NCBI GenBank assembly: GCA_017615055.1
Contig: JAGAAW010000070.1
Span: 1-37,832 of the forward strand
Direction: 5' to 3'
Origin: Fibrobacter sp.
GTDB lineage: Bacteria > Fibrobacterota > Fibrobacteria > Fibrobacterales > Fibrobacteraceae
Length of the DNA: 37,832 nt
Part shown: positions 9,301-32,179 of the stretch, piece by piece
How positions within the stretch are numbered: the stretch's first letter is position 1
Layout: every line of letters begins with the position of its first letter
Program-made: the position numbers and the translations under genes
The notes under the pieces: model-generated
The model's input: only the letters and a program-made list of their open reading frames with translations
Told to the model about the DNA's origin: nothing
Database searches by the model: none

Positions 9301-10666
9301 GCCGGTGCAGCCGTTCGTTATTGAAGAAAAGAAGCAGTTCCAGCCGTTCGACTTCAGCAAGGTGGTGAACGACCCGGATAACAAGCTCAGCGAACTCAAG
9401 TGGACGCTCGATAACGACAAGCCGGGTGCCAAGGATGCCCCTGCCAAGAAGGGTAAGAAGGGCAAGGCTGCCGAACCGGAAGCCGCTCCGACGAAGCATG
9501 AACTTATCTTCAACATCAGCGACAAGGGCGTGCTGACCTGCGAAACGCCGAACAAGTTCTGGTATGGTACTGAAACCGTGACGGTGAACGTGTTTGACCC
9601 GTCGGGCGAAAAGGCCTCCGTGAACGTGAAGTACACCGTGAAGCCGGTGAACGACCCGCCGGTCGTGAAGGAAATCCCGGGCCAGGAAACGCTTGAAGGC
9701 AAGTCCTTCAAGCCTATCAAGCTCGACCAGTACGTGAGCGACCCCGACCACAAGCCGCACGAAATCAAGTGGAAGGTGACGGGTGCCAAGATGCTCGACG
9801 TGATGATTTCTGGTGGCCGCGAAGCCGTAGTGAAGCCCAAGAAGCAGGATTGGTTCGGCGAAGAAACGCTCGTGTTCATGGCTCAGGACCCGTCCGGTGG
9901 TATGGACAAGACCGTGGTGAAGTTTGTGGTGAAGCATGTGAACGCCGCTCCGGTGATGCGTGACATGCAAGATTTCACCATCAAGGAAGACGACAACCAC
10001 GGCGTGCTTGTGGTACTCAAGACCGATCAGTATGCCCGCGACAAGGACCACAGGCCTGAAGAGCTCAAGTGGAGCTGGACTGGCAACAAGTTCCTTGATG
10101 TGAAGCATGACAAGTTCAAGAGGACGATTACTGTCGCCCAGCCGCACGAGAACTGGAACGGCAAGCCGGAACGCATTACCTTCACGGTCACTGACCCCGA
10201 AGGCGCGAAGGCATCGAAGACAGCCACCTTCACGGTGATTGCGGTGAACGACCCGCCGGTTGCGAAGTCCCAGACGTATATGACCCAGGAAGGCGAAGTG
10301 CTCAAGGTGCCCGCTTCCGAAGGCCTGTTCGCCGGCGTGCTTGACCCGGATGGCGAGAAGCCTGTATCGGCCCAGCTGGTGCAGCGTCCGCGCAACGGCA
10401 AGATTGACCTGAACGAACGCGACGGTAGCTTCACCTACACGCCGAACAAGGGATTCTCCGGCCTCGACGAATTCACCTTCAAGGTGAAGGACCCGGGTGG
10501 AGTCTACTCCAAGGTCGAGACTGCCGAAATCAACGTGACCTTCAAGATGAAGGACCTGCGTGGCGGCGAAAAGAAGCCTGCCCCGAAGGCCGAGGAACCG
10601 AAGAAGGAAGAAGAAAAGCCGGCTAAGGAAGACAAGAAGGGCAAGAAGAAAAAGAAGAAAAGGTAG
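3326..10666 (+). CDS. Giant secreted protein with 22 tandem cadherin/Ig-like repeats
   Basis: The 2446-aa protein has a Sec signal peptide (basic MKRMK, hydrophobic core, cleavage likely after VIAQ near residue 24). Residues 38-2309 hold 22 repeats of about 97-137 aa. The shared pattern is an IPxQTIxEKxxF start, a DPDH acidic loop, LKWxVSGNKxLKV, a PNxxWNGSE tryptophan turn, TFTVTDPEGA, and an FTVxSVND end. Acidic DPDH and VND motifs recall the Ca2+ linkers of cadherin-like domains. Residues about 2310-2410 form a different final module of the tandem-95 (Big_9/Cadherin_3) type, with DGSFTYTPNKGFSGLDEFTF. The last 35 residues are almost all Lys, Glu, Pro and Ala. It is probably a surface or matrix adhesin or a long envelope stalk. 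GGGAG lies 10 nt before the ATG and a terminator follows the stop. No anchor, sortase motif or enzyme domain was seen. Confidence 0.85.
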   Translation: MKRMKWPVTALLASAGVLASVVIAQENSDSAPAVENNAPSVNGIPGESINEGGKFAPIKLDNYVSDDMDKPDKLKWSVSGNKSIKVNISNDRVATLQVPDQYWNGSEDITFEAKDTKGAVGSETVNFTVESVNNPPVMKDIPEQTIDEGKQFTKIKLDDFVTDPDHPKDQILWEFDIQPAGKDQADGDLNVEIDPKRVATIIIPDTNWYGAAKITFTATDGEYASDKKTALFTVKPINDSPIIQKIPDQTIEEKNEFESISLTDFVSDVDDDVSKIKWTIAGNKDLKFDIDKYGTANIKIPNEFWNGSETITFTATDPAGAAVSTKATFTVKSINDPPEFTKDVPEQTIEEKQEFKPVELSQLVKDPDHKMDQLKWEVSGNKDLKVKIAGGVATISIPNKFWNGSETLKFKVCDPANACAESEASFTVNSVNDKPEFAKQIPNQTIDEKKQFQKIKLDEYVKDADHKNSELSWDVDVKHQGKEPQSGTLNVNIDESRVASIEIPDTYWNGTAIATFTCTDPEGASIKQAVTLTVNSINDKPVFTKIPDQEVEEKSELSSIVLDEYLSDPDHDISKLKVEVSGNKDIKVNINQKTREVTFKTPNELWNGSETVTFTATDPDGGVAKTSVKLSVKSINDPPVMKDIPEQTVKEKQEFKPVELDKYVDDLDHDKAKLKWTITGNRELKVSVDGNRVMKVTPPSPQWNGSETLTIKVTDPEGATDERSVAYTVESVNDVPEFVKQVNPQTIKEKEQFQPIKLGEMVRDMDNKASELTWSVEVKPAPGSKKKETGLNVEIDAQQVAKIIIPSKHWNGAEEITFTVTDPEGAKATSKAVFTVTSVNDVPVLKKIPDQMIEEKQQFNSVNLAELASDADHDFKDLKWTVAGNKQLKIDIDKAGVATIKTPSPMWNGSEKVTFTVTDPEGASAKTDAVFTVKSINDVPVMKDIPSQKIKEKEQFKTIALDDFVKDEDHDNSKLKWTFSGNKDLKVQMDSKRVVTVTAPNKFWHGEETVTFTVTDPEGASDSRKVKFTVESVNDLPVFTKPIKDQTIPEKREFAIINLADIVSDPDHKPEQLTWSFDVKAAKGAPKGYTPKLSVKVENRMARIIIPDKNWNGAEEITFKVEDPEGGKATCTALFTVTSVNDAPTIGKIDDQTIEEKQEFAPIDLASIIKDPDHPFEKLKIEVTGTKELKIDIAKDGKATIKTPNKMWNGTEKVTFAVSDPEGATAKTQVTFTVKSINDVPVMKDIVDQTIKEKGQFKPIELDNFVDDLDHPKNKLKWKIEGAKELKVQMDGSHKVTVVQPNPNWHGSEKVKFTVTDPEGASDSRTVTFTVESVNDAPEFVRELKDQSIDEKKQFQPIKLADLVKDPDHKTSELKWSFDVKPAKAGAAAAPKKGKKGKEEEKAPAGESLKVKIDAQQVATIEIPNKYWNGAASITFTATDPEGAKVSKTAHFEVRSINDAPKISDKAPQGETIREGGRFKTIDLASLANDPDHPASSLKWTVSGNKQLKVDIRKDNTVIVAVPDPQWSGREMLTFTVTDPEGASANHKMTFEVTRVNDPPTLAKKIPDQKIKEKEQFKQIKLDEYVKDPDNKPNELSWSISGNKKLKAEISSSRILTVSAPDKYFWCAPETMVLIVKDPDGAETSQTVTFEITSVNDAPEMKDIQGQKIKEKGQFKEIDLNKFVKDPDHKPEQLTWTATVAKAGGAAPAPKKAAPKKPAKKGKKGAKEEKEEEAAPAPAPADDFQVEIDNRNIARIKIADQYWHGERNVTFTVTDPEGAKASKTATFTVESVNDAPVIKPIPIQSIQEKEHFKPIDLSQFVSDPDHAFGALKFEVGATRSLKASVNSKKELVVTTPDKFWSGTEKVKVDVLDPEGAKASVQITFEVTPVNDPPVVHNIPGQKIKEKEKFEPIDLSKAATDPDNKPAELKWSVSGNKDLKVDIKGSRGMVVTPNPNWFGKETITFTVKDPSGASASKTATFEVTPVNDPPTLKPVQPFVIEEKKQFQPFDFSKVVNDPDNKLSELKWTLDNDKPGAKDAPAKKGKKGKAAEPEAAPTKHELIFNISDKGVLTCETPNKFWYGTETVTVNVFDPSGEKASVNVKYTVKPVNDPPVVKEIPGQETLEGKSFKPIKLDQYVSDPDHKPHEIKWKVTGAKMLDVMISGGREAVVKPKKQDWFGEETLVFMAQDPSGGMDKTVVKFVVKHVNAAPVMRDMQDFTIKEDDNHGVLVVLKTDQYARDKDHRPEELKWSWTGNKFLDVKHDKFKRTITVAQPHENWNGKPERITFTVTDPEGAKASKTATFTVIAVNDPPVAKSQTYMTQEGEVLKVPASEGLFAGVLDPDGEKPVSAQLVQRPRNGKIDLNERDGSFTYTPNKGFSGLDEFTFKVKDPGGVYSKVETAEINVTFKMKDLRGGEKKPAPKAEEPKKEEEKPAKEDKKGKKKKKKR
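3437..10252 (+). repeat. 22-copy tandem domain repeat with a three-domain super-repeat
   Basis: Repeats average 103 residues. Copies 2, 5, 8, 11, 14, 17 and 20 each carry an extra loop at the same place, between the LxW strand and the LxVxID strand. All other copies are short. This gives a super-repeat of three domains, about 900 bp (long-loop positions near 3853, 4750, 5656, 6559 and 7462). Copies 7, 10 and 13 share near-identical openings (PVMKDI) and closings (TVESVND), as expected if three-domain blocks were duplicated together. Confidence 0.85.
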
Positions 10667-10823: not shown

Positions 10824-10899
10824 CGGGATAGACGAGGCTTGAACTCGCAACCTCCGGCGTGACAGGCCGGTGCTCTAACCAAAATTGAGCTACCACCCC
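10824..10899 (-). tRNA. tRNA-Asp (anticodon GTC)
   Basis: Read on the minus strand, the 76-nt cloverleaf folds fully. The acceptor stem is GGGGTGG/CTATCCC (two G-U pairs). The D arm is GCTC/GAGC with GGTTA in the loop. The anticodon stem is CCGGC/GCCGG around CTGTCAC, giving anticodon GTC. The T arm is GCGAG/CTCGT with loop TTCAAGC. The discriminator is G73, as usual for aspartate. CCA is not encoded. The gene stands alone between a TTGACA-N17-TATATT promoter and its own terminator. Confidence 0.93.
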
Positions 10900-16449: not shown

Positions 16450-19400
16450 ATGTGGAAAGTTAAAGGTTCCGTCCGCTATTTCTTATCGATTATCGCGACG
16501 GTGTTTGTGCAGGTGGGCGTGTTCATCTACGCCCAGAAGATCCTTTCGGGTTCCTTTAGCAACGCGGAGAGTGGCCAGACCTGGCAGACGTTCATGCTCC
16601 AGATCTTCTTTATCGCCCCCTACGTAGTCATGATCTGGCCTGCGGGGTTCTTCACCAGCAGGTTCTCCAAGAACAAGGTGCTGGCCTGGTCCTCGCTCTT
16701 TATGACACTCTTTGTTACGGCACAGGCGGTGCTCGTTACGTGCGGTTGCCCGCGTGTCGCCTTCTGGCTTACCATTGGCCTTTCCTCGGGTTTTGCAGTC
16801 CATAGTGCCGCCAAGTACGCCATTGTCCGCGAGATGTTTGGTGTCCATAACCTTAGTTACGCGAACGCATTCCTGCAGATTTTCTCACTGATAGGCATTA
16901 TCGTCTCGAGTTGGCTTGCCATTGTGGGCGTGAACCTGATTGACCTGAATGCGCTTGTCCGCTACGAGGCTGTCGGCGTCCTGATTTCGAAGTCGGTCGT
17001 TATTCCGTGGATTCTCGTTACGGTGAGCATACTCGGTACGGTCGCGAGCTTCCTTATCCCGAAGGTCAAGTACAACGACAAGAACATCAAGTTCTCCGTT
17101 GCTCGTCGTCGTCTGAGTTTCGGCTGGCGTCATCGCACTCTCCGTGCCTCTATTATCGCGCTTTCGATGTTCTGGGCGCTCGCCCAGGTGTTCACGCTCG
17201 TGTTCCAGGATGTTTCGGGCTCGCAGGCCGTCAACGTGTTGCAGAACTACCTCGCGTTTGCCGTTGCGGGCCTCGTGGTGGGGTCTATCATTGCGGCGCA
17301 TAATTCCAAGGACTTTATCGAGACGGGCTTTGTGCCGCTCGGCATGATTGGCGCTTCGCTTACCATGTTCCTTATCCCGTTCTTTGTGCACCCGGTGGCG
17401 CTTTCTATCCTCTACACGGCTATCGGTATCTTCGGCGGCATGTTCCTCGTTCCGGTGAATGCTTTGTTGCAGTACAACACCCGTCCCAACAATTCGGGCT
17501 GGGTCATTGCCCTTGCGAACATGATACAGGCCCTTGTGCTCGTGGTGTTCCTGTTCATCTATTCGAGCTTGGTGCGCTTTACATCGCTTGAGCCGCCGTA
17601 TTACTTTATTGGCCTTGCGCTCATTTCGGTGGGAGTGTTCTACTGGTCTATCTTGAACCTTCCGCAGGCGCTTGTCCGCTCGCTGTTGCGCCTGGTGTTC
17701 AGCCGTTACAAGATTCGCGTGCTCAACGTGGGCAATATCCCGAACGACGGTCCGGTGCTCCTGGTCGGTAACCACCACAGCTTTATCGACTGGGCGATGG
17801 TGCAGATGGCCTGCCCGCGCCCGCTGTGCATCGCTAGCAACAAGGACCATTTCGAGAAGTGGTACCTGCGCTCCATGCTTAAGCGCTTGGGGAGCATCCG
17901 TATCGATAACCGCCACCCCGAAGACGCCATGAAGAAGATTCACGAGAAGCTCATGGCGGGCCATGCGGTGGTGATTTTCCCGACGGGCGAGGTGGCCCGT
18001 TCTCCGCACGTGGAACCCTTCAGCATCGACTACTCAAAGGCCGTGGAGGGCACGGATGCGGCAGTGGTGCCGTTCTACATCCAGGGCCTGTGGGGCTCCA
18101 ACTACAGTTATAGCGGTTCCAACATGTACGGCGCCTCTGCGGAACGTACCGTGACGGTCGCGTTTGGCGAGTCCATCCCGGCGACGACGCCTGCAAACGA
18201 GGTGCGCACCATCATCCGCAACATCTCGATTAGTGCGTGGAACTATGCGGTTTCGTTCGTGAAGCCGATTGGCGACTGCTGGATCCGTACCTACAAGAAG
18301 TACGTGAAGCATGGTCCTGCCATATACAACCCCGACGGCGGGCATTTCTCCGGCTTCAAGCTGATGGGTGCCGTCATCGCGTTCAGCAGGCACCTGAAGA
18401 AGATTCTTGGCCCCGAGGAGAAGAACGTTGGTATTATGTTGCCGCCGAGCCCGGCGGGCGTCATCGTGAACTTGGCACTCTGGCTCCTGGGCAAGACGAA
18501 CGTGAACCTGAACTACACCTCGTCGGTGGACAACGTGAAGTTCTGTGCCGCCCGCGCCGACGTGAAGACGGTGATTACGAGCAGGCAGTTTGTCGAGAAG
18601 CTCAAGATGCGCGGCAACGACTACTCGAAGATTGCAAGCGACAAGCTCCGCATATTCTACGCCGAAGACTTCATGAAGGTTATCCCGAAGGCGAAGATAG
18701 CGTTCTTTATAGTGTTCTGCATCTTGATGCCGAGTTGGTTCATCAAGTTCTGCTTCCGCAAGCGTGTCAAGCTTGATGATATCGCCGCTATCATGTTCAG
18801 TTCGGGCTCCGAGGGCACGCCGAAGGGCGTTATGCTGAGTCACAGGAACCTGATGGGCAATATCCAGCAGCTCGCCTGTATTTTCAACGTGACCCGCGCC
18901 GACGTGATGCTTTCGGAACTCCCGCTGTTCCATAGCTTTGGCCTTACGGTGACTACGCTCTTGAACCTCACGGAAGGCTGCCCGATTGTGACCGTGGCCG
19001 ACCCGACCGACGTGAAAACGATGGCCCGCGTGTGTGCGGAATTCCGCGTTACGGCGTTTGTCGCGACTCCGACATTCTTGCGTGCGTTTACGATTAGCCG
19101 CTATGTGCACCCGATGGCGCTCAAGTACGTGCGCCTGATTATCGCTGGTGCCGAGGCCCTGCGCCCTGAACTTGCGACGGCGTTCCGCCTCAAGTTCGGT
19201 AAGGAAATCTACGAGGGCTACGGCTGTACCGAAACTGCCCCGGTGGCATCTATCAATACTGAGAACAACCTGCACAGCGACTACATGACCATGCAGGTGA
19301 ACAACAAGCCGGGTACCGTGGGCATGGCGCTCCCGGGCTCGCAGTTCCTGATTGTGGACCCCGATACGAACGAGCCGCTGCCGACGGGCGAGGCGGGCAT

Positions 19401-19881
19401 GATCCTCATCGGCGGTTGCCAGGTGATGGTGGGCTACCTCAAGGACGAGGAACGCACCAACAGCGTGATTACGATGATCAACGGCAAGCGCTACTACCGC
19501 ACGGGCGACAAGGGCTTCCTTGACGAGGATGGCTTCCTTACGATTGTGGACCGCTACAGCCGCTTTGCCAAACTTGGTGGCGAGATGGTGAGCCTCGGTG
19601 CCGTCGAGAAGAAGATTCAGGATACGCCGGTACTCGAGGGCTGTGACTACGTGGTGACCTCGATTCCGGATTCCGCGAAGGGCGAGAAGATCGTGCTCCT
19701 TTACCAGGGTGATAAGGACCCGAAGGACGTGCTTTCGGAACTGCGCGCAAGCGGATTCCCGCCGATTATGCTGCCTGCGGTGGCGTTCGCGGTGGAGAAG
19801 GTTCCGAAGCTCGGTACCGGCAAGGCTGACTTTACCACAGCGAAGAAACTCGCGAAGGAACTTGCGGGAGCCTCTAAATGA
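16450..19881 (+). CDS. aas: LplT-PlsC-Aas fusion: lysophospholipid flippase, acyltransferase and acyl-ACP synthetase
   Basis: The 1143-aa trifunctional protein has three parts. Residues about 1-410 are an MFS transporter of the LplT type with about 12 membrane helices. Residues about 425-610 are a PlsC acyltransferase with the HX4D motif (HHSFID, about 442-447) and IFPTGE in place of the usual FPEG block (about 510). Residues about 640-1135 are an AMP-dependent acyl-ACP synthetase with SSGSEGTPKG (about 786-795), GYGCTETAP (about 923), YRTGDKG and C-terminal GTGKADF. Together they would bring lysophospholipids inward across the inner membrane and re-acylate them with acyl-ACP made on site. 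In E. coli lplT and aas are separate neighbouring genes. AAGGG lies 8 nt before the ATG. Confidence 0.9.
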   Translation: MWKVKGSVRYFLSIIATVFVQVGVFIYAQKILSGSFSNAESGQTWQTFMLQIFFIAPYVVMIWPAGFFTSRFSKNKVLAWSSLFMTLFVTAQAVLVTCGCPRVAFWLTIGLSSGFAVHSAAKYAIVREMFGVHNLSYANAFLQIFSLIGIIVSSWLAIVGVNLIDLNALVRYEAVGVLISKSVVIPWILVTVSILGTVASFLIPKVKYNDKNIKFSVARRRLSFGWRHRTLRASIIALSMFWALAQVFTLVFQDVSGSQAVNVLQNYLAFAVAGLVVGSIIAAHNSKDFIETGFVPLGMIGASLTMFLIPFFVHPVALSILYTAIGIFGGMFLVPVNALLQYNTRPNNSGWVIALANMIQALVLVVFLFIYSSLVRFTSLEPPYYFIGLALISVGVFYWSILNLPQALVRSLLRLVFSRYKIRVLNVGNIPNDGPVLLVGNHHSFIDWAMVQMACPRPLCIASNKDHFEKWYLRSMLKRLGSIRIDNRHPEDAMKKIHEKLMAGHAVVIFPTGEVARSPHVEPFSIDYSKAVEGTDAAVVPFYIQGLWGSNYSYSGSNMYGASAERTVTVAFGESIPATTPANEVRTIIRNISISAWNYAVSFVKPIGDCWIRTYKKYVKHGPAIYNPDGGHFSGFKLMGAVIAFSRHLKKILGPEEKNVGIMLPPSPAGVIVNLALWLLGKTNVNLNYTSSVDNVKFCAARADVKTVITSRQFVEKLKMRGNDYSKIASDKLRIFYAEDFMKVIPKAKIAFFIVFCILMPSWFIKFCFRKRVKLDDIAAIMFSSGSEGTPKGVMLSHRNLMGNIQQLACIFNVTRADVMLSELPLFHSFGLTVTTLLNLTEGCPIVTVADPTDVKTMARVCAEFRVTAFVATPTFLRAFTISRYVHPMALKYVRLIIAGAEALRPELATAFRLKFGKEIYEGYGCTETAPVASINTENNLHSDYMTMQVNNKPGTVGMALPGSQFLIVDPDTNEPLPTGEAGMILIGGCQVMVGYLKDEERTNSVITMINGKRYYRTGDKGFLDEDGFLTIVDRYSRFAKLGGEMVSLGAVEKKIQDTPVLEGCDYVVTSIPDSAKGEKIVLLYQGDKDPKDVLSELRASGFPPIMLPAVAFAVEKVPKLGTGKADFTTAKKLAKELAGASK

Positions 19882-20960: not shown

Positions 20961-23210
20961 ATGAAAACGTGTAGGATGTTGGTTGGGATTGCCCTTTCGC
21001 TTGCCGCATTTGCGGGCGTATCTGTGGCGCAGTCGATAAACTGGAAGGGCGTATGCACGCAGAACGGGCACACGCTTATCGCTTCTTCGGACCATTTCGA
21101 GGTCTGCAAGAAGGCTACGTTCGATGACGGGAGCGCGAACAACGTGTCGATTTCCGATGCCGACGCGCAGGCCGCCATCAAGACGCTCGAGGGTGTTTTC
21201 TCGTTCTATCACGATTCCATCAAGTGGATGTACCCGCAGCCGAGCAATGCGACGACAAAACTCAAGAGCGTCGCCTATATTTTCGAAAGTTCCAAGATGG
21301 GGGCTCTTTATGGTGGCGGGAACACCGAGGCCTGCCAAAGTGGCGAGTGTTCTCCGGGGCTCTGGCTCGGGAGTGGCGCTCTCACGGATTACTGGGGCCT
21401 GGCGCACGAATACGCGCATGGCTTGCAGAGTGTCGCGGGCTGGATGGGCAACAACAGCCATACGGGCTGGATTGCGGAATCGCATGCGAACTGGATGGCG
21501 CACCAGGTGAATTCGGGCGATGCGCATTACTGCTCCGAGGCGCTCATCAACTTCCCGTACCTGTATTACGGCTCCACGCGTGACCGTTACTGCAATTGGC
21601 AGTTCATGGAACACCTGAAGGAGGAATTCGGTGGCGGATACGAGGGCGTACAGAAGGTGAACCGCATGTGGACGGAGTCTATCCGTGACGGTGAGGCTGG
21701 GCGTATGGAACAGACGCCGTTCAGCGCGATGCTGATGGCTTACGGCTGGACTCTCGAAGAATTGAATGAACAGTTCGGTAAGTTCGCGATGAAGAACGCG
21801 ACGCTCGAATATGCGCCTGCGAAGAAGAAACTTTACAAGAATACCTGGGGCGATTACGAGTTCAAGACTCGCCGTACGAGTAGCGGCTGGGGCGACATGT
21901 ACCGCAGGCACCCGCGTGTGACCATGTTGGACAAGATGGAGTGCGCGACGGGCGAGGAATGCGCCGACCGCTACATTTCGCCTTCTTACTGGGCGCCGCA
22001 GCGCTGGGGGTACAACCTGGTGCGCATCTACCCGGAAAAGGCGGGGAAGGTGACGGTCAAGTTCCGCGGGGTTGTTCAGGACAAGAAGACGGTCAACGGG
22101 TACACTTGCTTTGGTGACAATACCGACTGGTATATGGGCAAGAGTTACAACTGGTGCAATTTCTCTCCGGACAAGCTTCCGGACCCCGCATCGGGCTGGA
22201 CGGTAGGGCTTGTCGCCGAGGGTTCGGACGGCACTCCGCGTTACAGCGAGATGAAACACGGCACGGGATTCAACCTGGAAATCGAGACGAAGGACAGCGA
22301 CAAGGCCTTGTGGCTGGCTGTCACGGCGACCCCGACCGAGATGCAGACGATTCTCTGGGACCAGTTCTACTACAGCATCTACCGCTACCCGTACATGATT
22401 GAGGTCGAAAACGGCGCTCCCGAGGGCTATACCAAGGATTTCTGGAAGCCTGCGGGCTACAACGGTACGACGGCATCGGGCTATGCGCAGCACTCCAATG
22501 GCGGGGGCTGGGTAAGCAACAAGGCGAAGGTGGACGCGACCGTTTATGTGGGGCCCGATGCGGTCGTGAACGGCGGGACGATTTCGGGAAACGCGCGAAT
22601 CGAGGATTTCGCGGTCGTGGATGGCGGAACTATCAGCGGGAACGCTATTGTCCGCGGGCGAGCGCTCGTAACCGCCGGTACCATCGGCGACGATGCCATC
22701 CTGGAAGAGGATGCGTGGCTCGTGAGCGGGAGCATTACCGGCAAGGCGAAGGTCGGCGCGCTCTCGATTATCGTGAACACGACGGTAACGGACAACGCGC
22801 AGGTCTATGGCGTGATGTGGGCCGTCGCCGACAAGAAGCTCTCCGGCACGGCACAGCTGCGTGGCGACCTGGAGAACAACTTCACCAAGGAAATCTCGAA
22901 GGGAGTGTTCTACGGCATGGTCGACGACGGCATGCTCTCCAATGCGAATTACGGCGCGAACCTCACGACTCCGCCCACCGATGCTACGGCAAGCATCGAG
23001 AATGCAAAGTGGTATGCGGTAGTGGACGATTCTACGTCGGTAAGCCCCGGGGACGATTCGACGACGGTTAACCCGGTTCTTACGGGTAAGCGCGTTGTGA
23101 ATTCGCAGAAACCTAGACTCTACTTTGATTCGAAGGAGCAGACGGTATTTGTCCGCTACAAAAAGAACGGACGCGAGTACAGATACCGCGTGAGCGGCAG
23201 CAAGAAGTAA
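20961..23210 (+). CDS. Secreted Svx-like zinc metallopeptidase with beta-helix repeats and a basic tail
   Basis: The 749-aa protein has a Sec signal peptide (MKTCRMLVGIALSLAAFAGVSVAQ). The N-terminal half carries a gluzincin-type HEYAH (149-153) with a downstream Glu in GWIAESHANW (about 173), the layout seen in the Svx/AvrXca secreted family. A middle beta-rich part with several cysteines follows. Residues about 520-620 are left-handed beta-helix hexapeptide turns (for example GTISGNARI, GTISGNAIV, GSITGKAKV). The last 35 residues are basic (FVRYKKNGREYRYRVSGSKK), like the basic terminal domain described on secreted Fibrobacter enzymes. It probably cuts glycoprotein or plant cell-wall protein outside the cell. 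AAGGA lies 12 nt before the ATG. It converges on the next gene with a 3-nt gap. Confidence 0.75.
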   Translation: MKTCRMLVGIALSLAAFAGVSVAQSINWKGVCTQNGHTLIASSDHFEVCKKATFDDGSANNVSISDADAQAAIKTLEGVFSFYHDSIKWMYPQPSNATTKLKSVAYIFESSKMGALYGGGNTEACQSGECSPGLWLGSGALTDYWGLAHEYAHGLQSVAGWMGNNSHTGWIAESHANWMAHQVNSGDAHYCSEALINFPYLYYGSTRDRYCNWQFMEHLKEEFGGGYEGVQKVNRMWTESIRDGEAGRMEQTPFSAMLMAYGWTLEELNEQFGKFAMKNATLEYAPAKKKLYKNTWGDYEFKTRRTSSGWGDMYRRHPRVTMLDKMECATGEECADRYISPSYWAPQRWGYNLVRIYPEKAGKVTVKFRGVVQDKKTVNGYTCFGDNTDWYMGKSYNWCNFSPDKLPDPASGWTVGLVAEGSDGTPRYSEMKHGTGFNLEIETKDSDKALWLAVTATPTEMQTILWDQFYYSIYRYPYMIEVENGAPEGYTKDFWKPAGYNGTTASGYAQHSNGGGWVSNKAKVDATVYVGPDAVVNGGTISGNARIEDFAVVDGGTISGNAIVRGRALVTAGTIGDDAILEEDAWLVSGSITGKAKVGALSIIVNTTVTDNAQVYGVMWAVADKKLSGTAQLRGDLENNFTKEISKGVFYGMVDDGMLSNANYGANLTTPPTDATASIENAKWYAVVDDSTSVSPGDDSTTVNPVLTGKRVVNSQKPRLYFDSKEQTVFVRYKKNGREYRYRVSGSKK

Positions 23211-23213
23211 AAC

Positions 23214-23873
23214 CTACAGGAAAAACTTCTGGTTGATTTCGATTTCGAGGCCTGCGTATTGCGGGCCAAATTTTTTGCGAAGCGCCGTGGTAAGCCCGTC
23301 AGAAATTCCCTTGTACGGATAGTTGAATCGCACCTTCATTTCGGGGTGTAACCGCTTGATTTCTGCCTTGATGACCTGCGCAAGCTGGCGTTCTGCGGGG
23401 CGGCTCGGGTCGTACAGTATTCCGATGTCGGTATTGCGAACTTTGCCGTTTAGCATGGGCGTAAAGCTGTGGATGCCGAGGTGAACGATGGTTGGCGCGG
23501 ATTTTGCAACACGCTTCGGCTGGCTCAGCGAACTTGCTATGAATTTTTCAATGGCTGTGCGATATTCCGTCCAGTACTTTGTGGCCTGCGCTTTCGCTTT
23601 TTCTGCGGCAGGCTTGTTGCGGGTTTCAAGTTCGTCGTAATACTTACTGAATGCACTCTTGTTGGTGATGGTGCGGTTCAGGTCCACGAACAGGCGCGAA
23701 AAATTCCCTTCGCAGTGGAACTCGGGCTTGGCGAATTTTACCAGTTTGCGGAACACCTGCAGGGCCCCGATATCGTAGGCGCGGTGCGTTTGTTGCACGT
23801 CTGCCGGGATGGCCTTCTTGAAGGCGGCGGGCAGACGGTTGCTTGCATGTTCGCAGGTGGGCATCAGTTTCAT
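23214..23873 (-). CDS. N-formylglutamate amidohydrolase-like enzyme of the amidoligase cluster
   Basis: The 219-aa cytoplasmic protein is of the FGase family (PF05013 type). Recognisable blocks are CEHASNRLP (7-15), YDIGA (33-37), SRLFVDLNR (59-67), HLGIHSFTP (131-139), RNTDIGILYDP (146-156) and a late GLEIEINQ. These hold the likely zinc ligands (Glu8, His9, His131 or His135). In histidine breakdown the family releases formate from N-formylglutamate, but no hut gene is nearby. Related proteins in amidoligase clusters are thought to cleave an amide on a glutamyl product. The start overlaps the stop of the phosphatase gene (TAATG), so translation is coupled. It is the last gene of the cluster. 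Confidence 0.85.
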   Translation of the reverse strand: MKLMPTCEHASNRLPAAFKKAIPADVQQTHRAYDIGALQVFRKLVKFAKPEFHCEGNFSRLFVDLNRTITNKSAFSKYYDELETRNKPAAEKAKAQATKYWTEYRTAIEKFIASSLSQPKRVAKSAPTIVHLGIHSFTPMLNGKVRNTDIGILYDPSRPAERQLAQVIKAEIKRLHPEMKVRFNYPYKGISDGLTTALRKKFGPQYAGLEIEINQKFFL

Positions 23874-25231
23874 TATTTTAATCGATCCTTCAAATCGGAA
23901 ATTTCTTGGGGTGTCATTCCGAGCTTTTCGAGGAATTGCTCCGTAGCATTAGCCCAGTCCACGTCTCCAGAATTGGGAATGTCAACCCCTTTGGCATGGT
24001 AGACGGCCTTTAGATTCCTCAGAACGACTGCCTTGAAAAAATCAATTTGTTCTTCACTCAGGGCGACGTGCCTGCCATCGACGACGTTGTAGAAATTGCG
24101 GAATGTTTTTGAGTAGTCTGCCTGGATTTCTTCGGCGGTCGCTCCCATTAGCGCTTCCAGCACGGCGATGGAAAATCCGGTGCGGTCCATGCCGTAGGTG
24201 CAGTGTACCAGGTACGGCCCCTCGTGCTCGATCATGTAGCGTAAGCCTTTTACAAGCCCATCCTGGAAAGAACTTGAAAAGAATTCTGGAGGCACTCCCA
24301 AGAATATGGTGTTCTGTGTCGAGTAGTAGGTACTCTCGAAACCCATGTACGATTTGGCGTTTTTTTCCTGATCGGCAAAATTGATAAACGTGGCAACACC
24401 CGCTTCTTTCGCGAGGGAGTCGGCATAGTAGTTTCGCCCGAGGTACATGTAGATGGGACTGGACGAGCGGTACAGCTTGTTTTCACCCATGCCTGTAGTG
24501 CGGACGACCCTGAAGTTTGCAAAATCGTCAACTGAAAGGTCTGGGTAATTTTCGCGGTAGGTGTCCAGATACAAGGAGTGGCGCATGGTTTCAATGCCCA
24601 GCAGGTAGCCACCCTTTTCTTTCAAGGACATGACGACTTCTATGAGCTCGTCTTCGTCGGTTATTCCGATGATATCGGAAAAAGTGCCATTATTGACTCC
24701 TAGGCTCACGTAATCTGAGCCTGCTGTTGCTGAAACTAGGAACCCGGCAATGGGTACGTCGTAGGTGGATTCAACTATGGGCATTTCGAGCGTGTCGTAG
24801 CCGGCAATTTCTACGGTCACGACGTCTCCAATTTCGAATTTGGTCAAGAAGGTTTTAACTGGATACAGAAGATATATGTTGTTGGAGGGGGAGCGCATTC
24901 CCCATATGACAATGCGCTGGTCGGACGTGTCTATTGCGACGGTATCGGCTTTTGTGGTATCTGCGGGAGAGGTAGTATCTGCAGGTGCTGTAGTGTCTGC
25001 TTCTGTGGTATCTGCCGCTATAGAGTCGCATTCGACGGTGTCTTTTAGTATCGTGTCGGGTTCTGCAACTTGCTCTTGAGTAACCGTATCTGGTTCTGCA
25101 GGCTCTTTTTGCGAGATGGTTTCCGTTTCTGTAATGTTTTCTGCGGCATAATACGAAACGGAATTGCTACAGGCAAGAAACGCCTGTATGCAGATAATGA
25201 GCCCGGTGAGAATCGGAAGGGTCTTGTTCAT
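23873..25231 (-). CDS. Lipoprotein tyrosine phosphatase (Y_phosphatase3-like)
   Basis: The 452-aa product starts MNKTLPILTGLIICIQAFLAC, with lipobox FLAC and acylated Cys21. Residues about 35-105 are a Thr/Asp/Glu-rich linker with repeated ADTT units. Residues about 235-420 are a phosphatase domain with the P-loop HCTYGMDRTG (Cys344, Arg350) and upstream NFRVVRTTG and LYRSSSP blocks typical of the Y_phosphatase3 group. The enzyme would act outside the inner membrane on phosphotyrosine, phosphoinositide-like or other phosphate esters. A reading frame continues 47 codons further upstream, but those codons overlap the GCS2 gene and lack a signal peptide, so I start at 25231. A TATATTTA box ends 6 nt before this ATG, and no ribosome binding site is present within 20 nt. 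Confidence 0.82.
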   Translation of the reverse strand: MNKTLPILTGLIICIQAFLACSNSVSYYAAENITETETISQKEPAEPDTVTQEQVAEPDTILKDTVECDSIAADTTEADTTAPADTTSPADTTKADTVAIDTSDQRIVIWGMRSPSNNIYLLYPVKTFLTKFEIGDVVTVEIAGYDTLEMPIVESTYDVPIAGFLVSATAGSDYVSLGVNNGTFSDIIGITDEDELIEVVMSLKEKGGYLLGIETMRHSLYLDTYRENYPDLSVDDFANFRVVRTTGMGENKLYRSSSPIYMYLGRNYYADSLAKEAGVATFINFADQEKNAKSYMGFESTYYSTQNTIFLGVPPEFFSSSFQDGLVKGLRYMIEHEGPYLVHCTYGMDRTGFSIAVLEALMGATAEEIQADYSKTFRNFYNVVDGRHVALSEEQIDFFKAVVLRNLKAVYHAKGVDIPNSGDVDWANATEQFLEKLGMTPQEISDLKDRLK

Positions 25232-25237
25232 TAGGAA

Positions 25238-25245
25238 TAAATATA
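25238..25245 (-). promoter_or_regulatory. Internal promoter box before the phosphatase gene
   Basis: On the minus strand this reads TATATTTA, in the 19-nt gap between the GCS2 gene and the phosphatase gene, 6 nt before the ATG. It could give a leaderless transcript of the phosphatase and FGase genes independent of the upstream ligases. Confidence 0.4.
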
Positions 25246-25250
25246 TTCTT

Positions 25251-26477
25251 TTAGACTCCGTATAGCCTATTTTCTGCCAGACATTTCGCCAATTTCCCGT
25301 ATTCGTACACGAAATCGTCGCGGTCGGGGTCGGCTCCCACGGCCTTGACGAGTGCGCTTGCGAGCGTGCCACGCTTGAACATGCTTGCGAGCAGTTCTAG
25401 CGAGTGCGAAGAAATCTTGCCTTTTACCTTGTCGGTGATTTTCTGGACGAGTTCACCGGCAGTGATTTCGCTGACGTCTATTTTCCAGATCTTCAGAAAG
25501 TTGCGGTCGCTTATCACCGTTTTTTCTGCAGAACGCGTGGTGGCCAGCAAAATTTTGGCGAGGGCGTCCGTATCGAGGGCCCGGATTTCTGCTTCACTGG
25601 CGAATGCTCCGTCCACAAGGCCCTTCAAGACGGCGACTTCCCATTCGGCAATCGCGATGTCTGCATCGGGGCATTCCTGGATGTCGACCAGTCGGATTTC
25701 CACGGCTCCTCGGTCAAAGCGGGCTATTGCACCGCGGCTGTTCAAGAAGAAGTGGTTGAGCAGGTGTTCGGGGTCGTATGGCGCAATATCCGCCTTCACC
25801 CTGTTGAAAATCTGCTCTTCGTAATCCTTGTATGTGAATACCGCTTCGGGGATGACCTTCCCGGTGATGCTCGGAATCTTCTCCTGGTTGTGGCGGTAGG
25901 TTTCAATGCGTCCGTCCAGGTAACCGCAGTATTTGCTGTCCAAAAACGGGCTCGATGCTGCAACGGCGGGTATCAGCGGCAACAGCGCGCGTATCGCCCC
26001 GTGCAGTTTCCCGAATTCCTCGTCGCCGTGGAACGAGAGGTTGATGTGGGTGGATTGCAGGTTCGCCCAGCCGTGGCCCTTGCAGTTGAAAATGCGGTCG
26101 TATGCCTGGTAGATGTCCAGGCAGTCGTAGGGCCAGAGCTTCATTTCGGCTGGGTCCATAAAGGGGTGCGCCGCCGTGGGCAAGAGCATCGCGTTGATGC
26201 TCTTGAGCGATTCGTTCGCCTTCAGGATTTCCTTGTGGAACGTTTTTCCCAGGTGGTGGAGGCTGTCGACGGGTTCTGCGCACTTGAATTCCAGCACGTG
26301 GCTCACGAGTTCGTTCGAAAGCCCGATGGGGCCGTGTTCCACGTCCGAAAGCTGTTCGCCGTTCTTGTCTTTACCGAGGGGGACATCGGCACGCGGGAGC
26401 ACGTCGAGCGTGTTCTTGTCCACGATCATGTACTCCATCTCGATGCCGTAGCGTTGCCAAAGTTTGTAAGCGCTCAT
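25251..26477 (-). CDS. GCS2-type carboxylate-amine ligase (glutamate-cysteine ligase-like)
   Basis: The 408-aa cytoplasmic ligase has the GCS2 fold signature. GIEMEYMIVD near the N-terminus supplies Mg-binding glutamates, followed by ELVSHVLEFKCAEP, TAAHPF, the substrate-loop STHINLSFHG, AVAASSPF and a late AIARFDRGAVEIRLVDIQECP. The family couples the side-chain carboxylate of glutamate, or another acid, to an amine with ATP. Here it is probably not glutathione synthesis, because the neighbours are an RLAN ATP-grasp ligase and a peptidase. An ATG 9 nt upstream is possible, but the start at 26477 overlaps the stop of the ATP-grasp gene (TAATG), which favours coupling. Confidence 0.87.
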   Translation of the reverse strand: MSAYKLWQRYGIEMEYMIVDKNTLDVLPRADVPLGKDKNGEQLSDVEHGPIGLSNELVSHVLEFKCAEPVDSLHHLGKTFHKEILKANESLKSINAMLLPTAAHPFMDPAEMKLWPYDCLDIYQAYDRIFNCKGHGWANLQSTHINLSFHGDEEFGKLHGAIRALLPLIPAVAASSPFLDSKYCGYLDGRIETYRHNQEKIPSITGKVIPEAVFTYKDYEEQIFNRVKADIAPYDPEHLLNHFFLNSRGAIARFDRGAVEIRLVDIQECPDADIAIAEWEVAVLKGLVDGAFASEAEIRALDTDALAKILLATTRSAEKTVISDRNFLKIWKIDVSEITAGELVQKITDKVKGKISSHSLELLASMFKRGTLASALVKAVGADPDRDDFVYEYGKLAKCLAENRLYGV

Positions 26478-27982
26478 TAGAACCATTCCCTCTCGTGTTG
26501 CTGCAGTTTATGCTGGGCGGCGTTCATGCGTTCTTCGATGCGGTGGCGCAGTGACCTCATGACGGCGAGATACACCTTGCTTTTGCCGACACCGTCTTCG
26601 ATGCCCGCGTCTATACTCGGGTTGTCGTTCACTTCGATCACGATCGGGTGCCCGTGCCATTCCTTCAGGTCAACACCGTAGAGCCCGTTGCCAATCAGGC
26701 TGCAAATGCGGAGTGCCGTCTTCACGATTCCGTGCGGCACCATTTCGATAGGCACGCTCTCGCATTTGCCCGAGAAGGCTTCGCTCTGCTTGTCATTGCT
26801 TTCCCAGTTGTAGATTTGCCAGTGGCCCTTCGCCATGTGGTACTTGCAGGCGTAAAGCGGTTTGCCGTCGAGCACGCCCACGCGCCAGTCGAATTCCGTC
26901 GGGGTGAACTCCTGCGCGATAAGCAGGTCGCTGTGCTCGAACATCTCGTCGAGAATCTGTTCCAGTTCTTCCTTGTTGGTCGCCTTCTTCACGCCCATCG
27001 AAAAACTTGAATCCGGCGACTTGATGACCATCGGGAACCCGATTTCTTTCGCGAGCGTGTGGCGGTTTTCGGCATGCGCGATAATCGTCTTCGGGGAATG
27101 AATCTTGGCGGCCTGCATGAGTTCTTGCAGGTACACCTTGTTGGAGCAGCGCAGAATGCTGTCCGGGTCGTCGATGACGGCAATCCCGAGCGACTGCGCG
27201 CGGCGTGCAAAACTGTACGTGTAATGGTTCACGTTCGTCGTCTCGCGGATAAACAGCGCGTCGAATTCACCTACGCGCGGGTAGTCCTTGCGAGTAATCA
27301 TCTCCACGCGGAATCCCGTATCTTCTGCGGCCTTCACGAAGTGCTGTATGGCTTCGGCGTTGCTTGGCGGCTCCACCTCGTCGGGGTTCGTGAGGATGGC
27401 GAGGTCGTACAGGTAATCCTCTTCCTTGCTGGAGGCGTAGCGCGTTTTCTCGAAGTATTCCTGTGCGAACTTGTCCACGAATTCCATGTGCGATTCGGGA
27501 ATCTCGTCCACGCAAATCGGGCGGATGCTCTGGATGAACCACTTCTGCTTGAACACGAATTTCGCGCGCAGGAGCGGGGCCTGGAACAGGCGGTAGAGTT
27601 CCTGTGAAAGTTCCAGGTATTGCGGGCTCACGTTCTGCCCGAAGTAAATCGAGAGCACAAATTCCGTGCCCGTCAGTTTATGCAGGCTTTTCTGTATCAG
27701 GTTGTCGATTTCGTCGGAGATGTGCTTGATGACCGCGGGGGCCTTGAAGTCGCGCATGTTCTTGACGCCAGGAATCACCTTGTGCCCGCGGGCTTCCGCC
27801 AAAAGCGACACGTAGTAGCCCTTGCTCTGGTAGCTGTAATCGCGGCAGAGGTTGAAAACGCGCAGGTTGCGTTCGTTCGTGTACTTGCTGGAAATCAGGT
27901 AGTCCTGTGCCGACGTGATTTCGATTCCCGGAACGTGGAGCTTCCAGTTCTTCGGGTTGTTTACTACTATAAGTTTTTTCAT
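26477..27982 (-). CDS. RLAN-domain RimK-like ATP-grasp ligase
   Basis: The 501-aa cytoplasmic enzyme has an N-terminal RLAN-type region (about 1-190). Residues about 200-490 are an ATP-grasp domain like RimK, with nucleotide-binding FPMVIKSPDSSFSMGV (316-331), AQEFTPTEFDWRVGV (356-370) and the Mg-binding EVNDNPSIDAGIED (450-463). RimK relatives join glutamate or other amino acids to a carboxylate through an acyl-phosphate. The RLAN fusion is characteristic of predicted small-peptide pathways, not of ribosomal S6 modification. The start overlaps the C39 gene stop by ATGA and its own stop overlaps the GCS2 start by TAATG, so the three are produced together. The carboxylate and amine substrates are unknown. 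Confidence 0.9.
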   Translation of the reverse strand: MKKLIVVNNPKNWKLHVPGIEITSAQDYLISSKYTNERNLRVFNLCRDYSYQSKGYYVSLLAEARGHKVIPGVKNMRDFKAPAVIKHISDEIDNLIQKSLHKLTGTEFVLSIYFGQNVSPQYLELSQELYRLFQAPLLRAKFVFKQKWFIQSIRPICVDEIPESHMEFVDKFAQEYFEKTRYASSKEEDYLYDLAILTNPDEVEPPSNAEAIQHFVKAAEDTGFRVEMITRKDYPRVGEFDALFIRETTNVNHYTYSFARRAQSLGIAVIDDPDSILRCSNKVYLQELMQAAKIHSPKTIIAHAENRHTLAKEIGFPMVIKSPDSSFSMGVKKATNKEELEQILDEMFEHSDLLIAQEFTPTEFDWRVGVLDGKPLYACKYHMAKGHWQIYNWESNDKQSEAFSGKCESVPIEMVPHGIVKTALRICSLIGNGLYGVDLKEWHGHPIVIEVNDNPSIDAGIEDGVGKSKVYLAVMRSLRHRIEERMNAAQHKLQQHEREWF

Positions 27983-28677
27983 TTTTTATTTTCTATAACT
28001 AAAACATTCCCGTCGTAAGTCATTACCCCGAGCAAAATGCTGTGGAGCAGGCGGAACTTGTCCACCTTGTAGTATGGAGTCTTGTGCAACGGATTGGTGC
28101 CGTCGGGGTCGGCCACCATGAACTGTTTCTTTTCGTCGATGCCGTACACCACGACGAAATGCCCCATGGGCTCGCCGTGGATGTCGTCGAATACGGACTT
28201 GTCGTCCTTGCCGGTGAACTCGCGCATGCTGCGGTACAGGTAGGTGGCCGAAAGCCCGCAGAGCACGGGTACGCCCTTCTTGAAGTATTTCTCGAACATG
28301 GCGGCGCGCAAGTCCTCGAATGCAACCTTCCCGCCCAGGTCGATAAAGCGGATGTACGCCTCGATTGCCTTCCGGAGTTTGGGCGCGTGCTTTGCCTTGT
28401 GCAGCAGTTCCAGTTTTGCCTTCAGTTCGGGCATGCTGAGCGTGCTCCATGTGGGGTCAAGCAGCGTGAGGTTGTACGAATGTAGCGTGACCTTGAACCC
28501 GCGCTTGAGCGCGTCAATGCCAAGGAACACGCCGAGCGTTCCGCCGTCTTCCAAAAATTCAATTTCAGAGATGAGCTGCTTTAGGGAAATCTTGTAGCCG
28601 AGGCTGCTATACACTGCCTGCAGGCTGGTGGGCCCGCACGTTACGTCATCGGGCTGCTGTAGAATCTTGATGTCCAT
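27979..28677 (-). CDS. C39-like cysteine peptidase, first gene of the amidoligase cluster
   Basis: The 232-aa protein has a C39/papain-like catalytic set: Gln7 or Gln8 for the oxyanion hole, Cys14 in VTCGPTS, His173 in MGHFVVVYGID, and Asp190 in VADPDGT. There is no signal peptide or ABC-transporter region, so it acts inside the cell and not as a bacteriocin exporter. In this setting it may trim a precursor peptide or act as a transpeptidase on the product of the two ligases. AAAGG lies 7 nt before the ATG. A TATATTTG box 92 nt upstream, just beyond the dnaA stop, gives the cluster its own promoter. Confidence 0.85.
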   Translation of the reverse strand: MDIKILQQPDDVTCGPTSLQAVYSSLGYKISLKQLISEIEFLEDGGTLGVFLGIDALKRGFKVTLHSYNLTLLDPTWSTLSMPELKAKLELLHKAKHAPKLRKAIEAYIRFIDLGGKVAFEDLRAAMFEKYFKKGVPVLCGLSATYLYRSMREFTGKDDKSVFDDIHGEPMGHFVVVYGIDEKKQFMVADPDGTNPLHKTPYYKVDKFRLLHSILLGVMTYDGNVLVIENKK

Positions 28678-28781: not shown

Positions 28782-30107
28782 TTAGTCGTGGATGGCGTTC
28801 TTGAGGCCTTCGATAAGGCGAGCAAAAGCGGCATCCGTCTCCATCTCCTTCTTGACGCTCTTGATGGCGTGAACCACGGTGGAGTGGTCCTTGCCGCCGA
28901 AGCGCGAGCCGATGCTCTGCAGGCTGATGGAGGAACATTCGCGCATGAGGTACATCGCGACCTGGCGTGCCTTGGAAATTTCTTTGGTGCCGCGGCCGGG
29001 TTCGGTGAGTTTGGCCTCGGGAACCTCGTAGTGCTGCGATACCGTGTGGAGTACGGCGTCGAGGCTTACGCGGCGGCGGAGTGTCGGGGCGATTTCTGCC
29101 GCGACCTTCTGCGCGATGCTCATGTCGATATCATGGTTCATCAGGCTCGACTGTAGCGTGAGCTTGATGATGGCGCTTTCGAGGCAGCGCACGTTGCTTG
29201 CAATCTTTTCGGCGAGGAAGTGCAGCACCTCGTCGCTAATCTCGAGGTGGCGTTCTTCGGCCTTCTTGTGGAGAATGGCCTCGCGGGTTTCCACGTCGGG
29301 CGGCTGGATGTCCACGGTAAGGCCCCAGGAGAAGCGGCTCACGAGGCGGTCGGAGAGGTTCTTCACTTCGCCTGCGGGCGCATCGGAGGTAAGCACGATC
29401 TGCTTGCCGGCCTGGTGCAGCGCGTTGAATATGAGGAAGAACTCGTTCTGCGTCTCGTATTTGCCGGTCCAGTTCTGGATATCGTCGATGAGGAGGATAT
29501 CGACCTCGTTACGGTAGAAGTCGCTCATCTCGGTCACGCGACCGTCGCGCAGGCACTTCATGTACTGCTGCGAAAAATCTTCGGAGGTGAGGTAGCACAC
29601 GCGCTTGTTCGGGTCTTCTTCGAGCACGTAGTTGCCGATGGCCTGCAGCAGGTGAGTCTTGCCGAGGCCCGAAGAACCGTAGATGAACAGCGGGTTGTAC
29701 TGCGAGCCGTCGGGGGTCTTTGCGACAGCAATTGCCGCATTAAATGCAAGTTGTGCCTTGTCGCCGGGCACAAAGTTCTCGAAGCGGAAACTGGGGGAGA
29801 GGGGCACGCTCGGCTTGAGGAAATCCCTGAAGCTGTTGTCGGTCTCGGTATTTGCCTTCGGGGCTACTTCCTGCGGCTGGAACTCGAATTCCATGGGGGT
29901 CTCGCTGTGGGTCGCTTCCTTCCAGCCGAGCTTGATGAGTTCCTTGTAGGCGGCATAGACCTTAGTATCCAGTCCGGGCTGCACCGAAATGACGGCGTGA
30001 CCGGTGGTCTGGTTTACCATCTTGGTTTGGGCGAAATAAGTCTTGTACACGGAATCGGAGAGCATTCCGCGCAGGTAGTTGAGGCATCTTTCCCATTCGA
30101 CTTGCAT
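28782..30107 (-). CDS. dnaA: Chromosomal replication initiator DnaA
   Basis: The 441-aa protein has all DnaA parts. Domain I (about 1-75, starting MQVEWERCLNYL) mediates oligomerisation. A short linker follows. The AAA+ domain (about 105-320) has Walker A YGSSGLGKTH (about 143-152) and Walker B ILLIDDIQ. Domain IV (about 345-441) carries the DNA-binding signature FGGKDHSTVVHAI. It binds DnaA boxes and opens oriC. A reading frame extends 17 codons further, but homologues start at this Met, and AAGGGA precedes it. dnaN is not adjacent. The upstream gap has two DnaA-box-like sites that could serve autoregulation. Confidence 0.95.
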   Translation of the reverse strand: MQVEWERCLNYLRGMLSDSVYKTYFAQTKMVNQTTGHAVISVQPGLDTKVYAAYKELIKLGWKEATHSETPMEFEFQPQEVAPKANTETDNSFRDFLKPSVPLSPSFRFENFVPGDKAQLAFNAAIAVAKTPDGSQYNPLFIYGSSGLGKTHLLQAIGNYVLEEDPNKRVCYLTSEDFSQQYMKCLRDGRVTEMSDFYRNEVDILLIDDIQNWTGKYETQNEFFLIFNALHQAGKQIVLTSDAPAGEVKNLSDRLVSRFSWGLTVDIQPPDVETREAILHKKAEERHLEISDEVLHFLAEKIASNVRCLESAIIKLTLQSSLMNHDIDMSIAQKVAAEIAPTLRRRVSLDAVLHTVSQHYEVPEAKLTEPGRGTKEISKARQVAMYLMRECSSISLQSIGSRFGGKDHSTVVHAIKSVKKEMETDAAFARLIEGLKNAIHD

Positions 30108-31054: not shown

Positions 31055-32179
31055 ATGGCGAATATACTGGATTCACTGGGCATGGGCGAGGAAGTCCTCG
31101 AAGGCAAGAAGGCGTGGCTGTACGCCGAGGAAATCCTGCTGCATGTTTCGCGTACCTTCGCGCTCAATATCAACGTGCTCAAGGGCAGGCTCCACAGGAG
31201 CATCTTGCTTGCGTACCTGTACCTGCGTATCGCTGATACGGTTGAGGACGACCCCGACATGAAGGCCTCCGAGAAGGAGGTGTTGCTCGGGAAATTCGCC
31301 GACATATTTAAGACCGCCGACTTGCCCGAAGGGGCGATTGCCGCGTTTGAGGATGCGCTCCCCGAAAGCTGGCGCAAGTCCGACCACCCGTACATGAACC
31401 TGTGCCTGCATACGCACGTGGTTGTGCCGCTCCTGAAGGAGTTGCCCGAGGTGTACGCCGCCCCCGTGCGCGCGGTGACCATCGAGATGTGCCATGGCAT
31501 GGCTAAGTTTGCCCTGCGTCAGGAGGCGGCGCTGAGTTCCGGCTGGTTTACGCTCGAGAGTGTCGCCGACCTGGACGAGTACTGCTATTACGTTGCTGGC
31601 ATTGTCGGGAAGTTGCTTACGAACCTGTTTGCCGCGGATACCTGCCTGATTGGCGATGCGCGCAAGGCCGAAATGCAGAAGCTCGACGTGAGTTTCGGGC
31701 TTGCGCTCCAGGTGGCGAACATAGTGAAGGACTGCATGGAGGATTCGACCCGCAGGGTGTGCTTCGTGCCCGAGGAAATCTGCCGCCGCCACGGCTTCGA
31801 GCATTCCTACGACATGTTCAACCTGCCGGTAGGGGTGGCTGACGAGGTGCGTGCCGACTTCGAGGCACGCCGTGCTGCTGTGATGGAGGAACTCGTGAAG
31901 AAGGCGTGGGGGCACCTGGACGATGCCATCGCGTACACGAAGCTCGTGCCGAACGTGAAGATGCGTACCCGGCTCTTCTGCCTGTGGCCGTTGTTCATGG
32001 CCGCAGAGAATATGAAATTGATCGGCGATGGCTCGGGCCTGTTTGCCGCCGACAAGAAGATGAAGATTACACGTGATACGGTGAAGCGTATCGTGAAGTC
32101 TACGTCGGTGCATTTCTATTCCGACCGCTGGATCGAGAGAAACTATTTGCAATTGAAAAAAGGGGTGATGTCATCCTGA
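31055..32179 (+). CDS. Squalene synthase / phytoene synthase family protein
   Basis: The 374-aa enzyme is of the trans head-to-head prenyl synthase family. It shows SRTFALNI (about 32-39), the first Asp-rich motif DTVEDDPD (61-68), YCYYVAGIVGKLLTNLF with the conserved Tyr, and the second Asp-rich region NIVKDCMEDSTRRVCFVP (about 222-240). The pattern is closer to squalene synthase (two farnesyl diphosphates to presqualene diphosphate and squalene) than to phytoene synthase. No squalene cyclase, desaturase or other isoprenoid gene is in the window, so the end product is open. The last residues (MSS) and the TGA stop are encoded by repeat copy C, so the C-terminus was probably reset by that repeat. 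Confidence 0.82.
   Translation: MANILDSLGMGEEVLEGKKAWLYAEEILLHVSRTFALNINVLKGRLHRSILLAYLYLRIADTVEDDPDMKASEKEVLLGKFADIFKTADLPEGAIAAFEDALPESWRKSDHPYMNLCLHTHVVVPLLKELPEVYAAPVRAVTIEMCHGMAKFALRQEAALSSGWFTLESVADLDEYCYYVAGIVGKLLTNLFAADTCLIGDARKAEMQKLDVSFGLALQVANIVKDCMEDSTRRVCFVPEEICRRHGFEHSYDMFNLPVGVADEVRADFEARRAAVMEELVKKAWGHLDDAIAYTKLVPNVKMRTRLFCLWPLFMAAENMKLIGDGSGLFAADKKMKITRDTVKRIVKSTSVHFYSDRWIERNYLQLKKGVMSS

Follow-up and report, generated by a model that had tools for sequence, protein, structure and literature searches.

A predicted amide-bond cassette of two ligases and two hydrolases next to dnaA in Fibrobacter

The genes found downstream of dnaA in a contig from a gut Fibrobacter are probably best read as a widely conserved, horizontally spread amide-bond cassette, in which a pair of writer enzymes and a pair of trimming enzymes would act on one product. 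In the window (the whole stretch of 37,832 nucleotides that was analysed), five genes follow each other on the minus strand, as seen in an ORF check: a C39-like papain-fold cysteine peptidase (27979..28677, 232 aa), a ligase made of an RLAN domain and a RimK-like ATP-grasp domain (26477..27982, 501 aa), a GCS2-type carboxylate-amine ligase (25251..26486, 411 aa, or 408 aa from the second Met), a lipoprotein tyrosine phosphatase (23873..25231, 452 aa) and an FGase-like zinc amidohydrolase (23214..23873, 219 aa). All five proteins score above the curated Pfam cut-offs, in agreement with the earlier note, which had named five same-strand genes of these families. The first three are core members of the cassette, the FGase is a frequent member, and the phosphatase probably belongs to the dnaA locus instead; the four cassette families thus stand on one strand in the matching order with one extra gene inserted. 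The dnaA gene itself (28782..30107, minus strand; PF00308, 197 bits) lies upstream as context and is not a member.

Comparative work on amidoligases by Iyer et al. in 2009 reportedly predicted neighbourhoods of RLAN ATP-grasp, GCS2, C39 and FGase genes, and these have their protein families in common with the present genes. The cassette is, on this basis, a member of this predicted group. What is new here compared with that work is that the cassette falls into two independently placed gene pairs, that it was likely transferred into Fibrobacter and that the phosphatase is excluded from it. Searches of the literature for this set of genes turned up no description of it.

The genes are closely coupled. 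The peptidase and RLAN genes share an ATGA overlap and the phosphatase and FGase genes a TAATG overlap, both as previously claimed, and a gap of 19 nt separates GCS2 from the phosphatase. A second TAATG, claimed between the RLAN and GCS2 genes, holds if GCS2 starts at its second Met (26477); if the start is the ATG at 26486, which has GAGAGGG just upstream, the junction is a 10-nt overlap instead. The box TATATTTG, which the earlier note had placed before the first gene, occupies 28777-28770, some 93 nt ahead of the peptidase ATG and 5 nt beyond the dnaA stop. It was rejected as a promoter, being indistinguishable from chance: a sigma-70 consensus scan called no site at it, and its region contains 2 promoter-like sites versus 3.2 in shuffled sequences.

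The RLAN-ATP-grasp protein matches PF14401 with 162.5 bits (cut-off 25) and the RimK family PF08443 with 41.6 bits (cut-off 21). Residues E450, N452, D438, K321 and K282 are invariant in the alignment of 42 homologues, and by analogy with other ATP-grasp enzymes, from which the residue roles are taken, E450, N452, D438 and K321 would form an intact ATP/Mg site. Its structure model (pLDDT 86.9, pTM 0.70) matches the fold of Ddl, LysX/ArgX and RimK over ~300 residues, and the closest NCBIfam models of the ATP-grasp half are rimK_fam and LysX.

The GCS2-type ligase (PF04107, 70.3 bits) retains G14, E16 and E18 of the GhExE signature (PMC2588565), all three invariant across its homologues. The best fold matches of its model (pLDDT 94.6) are YbdK and the Salmonella homologue of YbdK, with a probability of 1.00, followed by plant glutamate-cysteine ligase and GshA, while PafA/Dop are more distant. 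Equivalog scores fall far short for the related functions: 30.5 against a cut-off of 331 bits for S6-RimK, 30.3 against 249 for a GshA-type model and 27 against 299 for glut_syn (NCBIfam). Judged by sequence, neither ligase is a standard glutathione or S6-modification enzyme.

The peptidase shows similarity to PF13529 (Peptidase_C39_2, 40 bits) and PF03412 (33 bits). Q8, C14, H173 and D190 are invariant in 37 homologues, which preserves the catalytic Cys/His/Asp set (C14, H173, D190). The FGase scores 82.7 bits for PF05013 (cut-off 28.9) and keeps the family motifs, with C7 E8 H9, N66 R67, H131 and H135 invariant in 22 homologues; a relative of known structure is PDB 2odf. It is the only PF05013 protein found in the source genome, which is 77% complete. 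A Hut-type role is conceivable for it.

In the proposed scheme the GCS2-type ligase probably forms an amide bond between an amine and a side-chain carboxylate, for which the γ-carboxylate of glutamate is the likeliest candidate, and the RLAN-ATP-grasp ligase probably extends the product by one further ATP-dependent amide bond. The C39-like peptidase and the zinc FGase-like amidohydrolase would then cleave this product, or an adduct of it, so that the acidic residue is set free or recycled. We infer here a single product for all four enzymes, the direction of each step and glutamate as the residue.

A search of genome contigs with the RLAN protein confirmed at least 581 relatives, and the gene order was judged in the best 80 of these loci. 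Among these 80, the order C39-RLAN-GCS2-FGase recurs in Bacteroidota, Ignavibacteriota, Balneolota, Omnitrophota, Nitrospirota, Desulfobulbaceae/Desulfuromonadales and Pseudomonadota, and shorter cassettes are found in Planctomycetota, Verrucomicrobiota, Spirochaetota and Uhrbacteria. Where the flank could be judged in this set, C39 lies upstream of RLAN in 55 of 75 loci; downstream of RLAN, GCS2 is found in 61 of 74 and FGase in 36 of 63. Adjacent genes overlap or abut in 46 of 58 RLAN/GCS2 pairs and in 28 of 33 GCS2/FGase pairs. Given this conservation across phyla, the cluster minus the phosphatase is not a chance neighbourhood. The earlier note had named two outcomes that would speak against the cluster, and neither was found: many phyla keep both ligases and both hydrolases together, and the two ligases differ from the standard enzymes of glutathione synthesis and S6 modification.

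Of 41 genomes, 27 have both RLAN and GCS2 and the other 14 have neither, counting strong RLAN matches alone, since the weak ones are other ATP-grasp proteins. RLAN occurs together with C39 in 24 genomes and without it in 3, and C39 occurs without RLAN in none. These counts include related, hence non-independent, genomes; they overstate the evidence, and their p-values are not to be taken at face value. Six related g5 genomes that are 90-98% complete have no FGase, nor do many other carriers, and C39 is absent from several RLAN carriers; the trimming pair is therefore not obligatory. RLAN genes without neighbouring partners were also observed (L086, L111, L119 and a P. aeruginosa plasmid).

Several other neighbours of RLAN were noted. 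In Uhrbacteria (L057, 5977-7325) RLAN-GCS2 is directly followed by two genes, one of the exo/endonuclease-phosphatase family and one for an Fe/Mn superoxide dismutase. In Verrucomicrobia (L089, 2080-6273) a GNAT gene overlaps RLAN, genes for a DAP-decarboxylase-like protein and DHDPS come next, and GCS2, C39 and FGase are all absent from the vicinity; in L095 a partnerless RLAN comes after an aspartokinase-homoserine dehydrogenase gene. For partnerless genes of this kind a link to the aspartate/lysine pathway is possible. In Azospirillum (L124) the gene immediately upstream of RLAN encodes a fusion of GNAT with a DUF3335 C39-like protein, a variant related to the DUF3335-GNAT fusions for which a role as peptide ligases or acetylases has been proposed (PMC10318531). 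The window, in contrast, contains no GNAT, and its peptidase is above the C39_2 and C39 cut-offs and below that of DUF3335.

The cassette is recurrently split into two pairs. Fibrobacter genomes with a lone RLAN-GCS2 carry C39 and FGase paired elsewhere (G001, G004, G006, G013, G014 and G019); in G013, a bin with 6% contamination, the separate C39-FGase is a second copy. A three-way split is seen in G008 and G018, where FGase is located beside the phosphatase at dnaA. In the Planctomycetota G062 and G066 a separate C39-FGase pair is likewise found elsewhere in the same genome. Because of this split the system can be tested in halves, the product by assaying RLAN-GCS2 by itself and the breakdown of that product by assaying C39-FGase.

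The RLAN of Fibrobacter groups with Bacteroidota in the tree (SH-aLRT 96) and not with the g5 genomes, which belong to its own class and with which it shares 43-44% identity; horizontal acquisition into Fibrobacter is therefore likely. The nearest non-Fibrobacter rows of GCS2 and C39 are also Bacteroidota, without starred support. A plasmid origin was rejected, as no plasmid match exceeds 46% identity, and so was a phage origin, the phage matches being ATP-grasp fragments annotated as S6 transferases.

The cassette may, tentatively, make and recycle an undescribed γ-glutamyl-type cofactor or tag across many phyla; RLAN-GCS2 is kept in Uhrbacteria with genomes of ~1.2 Mb, and the pairs are separable yet co-resident. 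A pathway kept in so many phyla is a good target in the search for a missing bacterial metabolite or protein tag. Fibrobacter is a major cellulose degrader of the rumen, and the product may for this reason matter there, with no link to fibre breakdown seen. The earlier note had the peptidase process a precursor or an intermediate; a precursor peptide is not supported: none of the small ORFs flanking the cassette is conserved beyond close relatives, and a precursor peptide or tag encoded beside the cassette was rejected.

A different and rather unlikely explanation is reversible tail modification, in which the C-terminus of a protein or peptide would receive glutamate-type residues from the RLAN ligase, as ribosomal protein S6 does from RimK, and would lose them again through FGase and C39, in the manner of RimB. 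It is in line with the likeness of the ATP-grasp half to rimK_fam and LysX and of its fold to RimK, LysX/ArgX and Ddl, and the RimK ligase with the RimB protease is an established writer-eraser precedent (PMC12239564). The RimK/RimB system of Pseudomonas likewise couples a RimK-like ATP-grasp ligase to a partner peptidase. However, the RimB protease is of the retropepsin-like aspartic type, neither GCS2 nor FGase belongs to the system as described (PMC12239564), and the window protein has an extra RLAN domain. Moreover, the S6-RimK score is far below its cut-off, a conserved small target ORF was not found nearby, and GCS2, which such a model does not need, tracks RLAN in 41 of 41 genomes.

Synthesis of a glutathione-like thiol is less probable still. 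Here GCS2 would make a γ-glutamyl-X, the ATP-grasp ligase would add the third residue, and C39 and FGase would degrade the product. The fold pair matches that of GCS2-type GshA and ATP-grasp GshB, in which a GCS-fold ligase is likewise followed by an ATP-grasp ligase, the GCS2 model resembles the plant glutamate-cysteine ligase, and the superoxide dismutase gene after RLAN-GCS2 in Uhrbacteria would suit such a role. The Fibrobacter genomes tested lack BshC and have only weak, partial GSH-S_ATP matches. However, the window proteins are far below the glutathione (GshA and GshB) cut-offs, BshC of bacillithiol synthesis is present alongside the cassette in g5 and Bacteroidota carrier genomes, and it is also absent from Fibrobacter genomes that have no cassette. 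The idea that the cassette product replaces bacillithiol was rejected on these grounds: carriers outside Fibrobacter can have BshC as well, and the Fibrobacter genomes lack it whether or not the cassette is there.

With the cassette still best read as two ligases and two hydrolases acting on one product, there remains the phosphatase. This protein (PF13350, Y_phosphatase3, 52.7 bits) shows by inspection a CX5R motif (HCTYGMDRTG) and a lipobox (LAC), and several paralogues exist. In part of the genus Fibrobacter, dnaA is found beside the cassette or the phosphatase. In L133, L134 and L139 the phosphatase adjoins dnaA without RLAN, GCS2 and C39, and in L139 also without FGase. The phosphatase keeps its place at dnaA in genomes whose cassette has another location, and so it probably belongs to the dnaA locus and is a bystander, with the cassette lying between dnaA and it. 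Synteny with dnaA in related genomes led to its rejection as a core member, and the five-gene cluster of the earlier note is reduced by this gene. A five-gene pathway, in which the lipoprotein phosphatase is a genuine functional member and links the product to a signal at the surface, is highly improbable: the TAATG overlap with FGase in the window and the adjacency of the two genes in G003, G008, G010, G012 and G018 speak for it, and against it stand the paralogues, the dnaA loci devoid of most or all cassette genes, the restriction of this neighbourhood to Fibrobacter (no locus outside the genus among the best 80 of at least 581) and the lack of association with RLAN in the genus (18 genomes with both, 3 and 3 with one alone, 1 with neither; p = 0.53, kinship ignored). 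The phosphatase may have a secondary link to FGase within Fibrobacter.

Several other genes of the window lie on the plus strand. A DUF6055 protein with a probable signal peptide (20961-23210, 203 bits) is convergent with the FGase gene. A 2446-aa protein (3326-10666), probably located at the surface or secreted, has at least 16 Big_9/cadherin-like repeats, and a 1143-aa protein (16450-19881) is a fusion of an MFS transporter, an acyltransferase and an AMP-binding domain. The only Rfam match within the window is one tRNA (10824-10899, minus strand). Beyond dnaA lies a squalene/phytoene synthase family gene (31055-32179, plus strand, 139 bits), and ORFs similar to it are found beyond dnaA in L021, L022, L133, L134 and L139.
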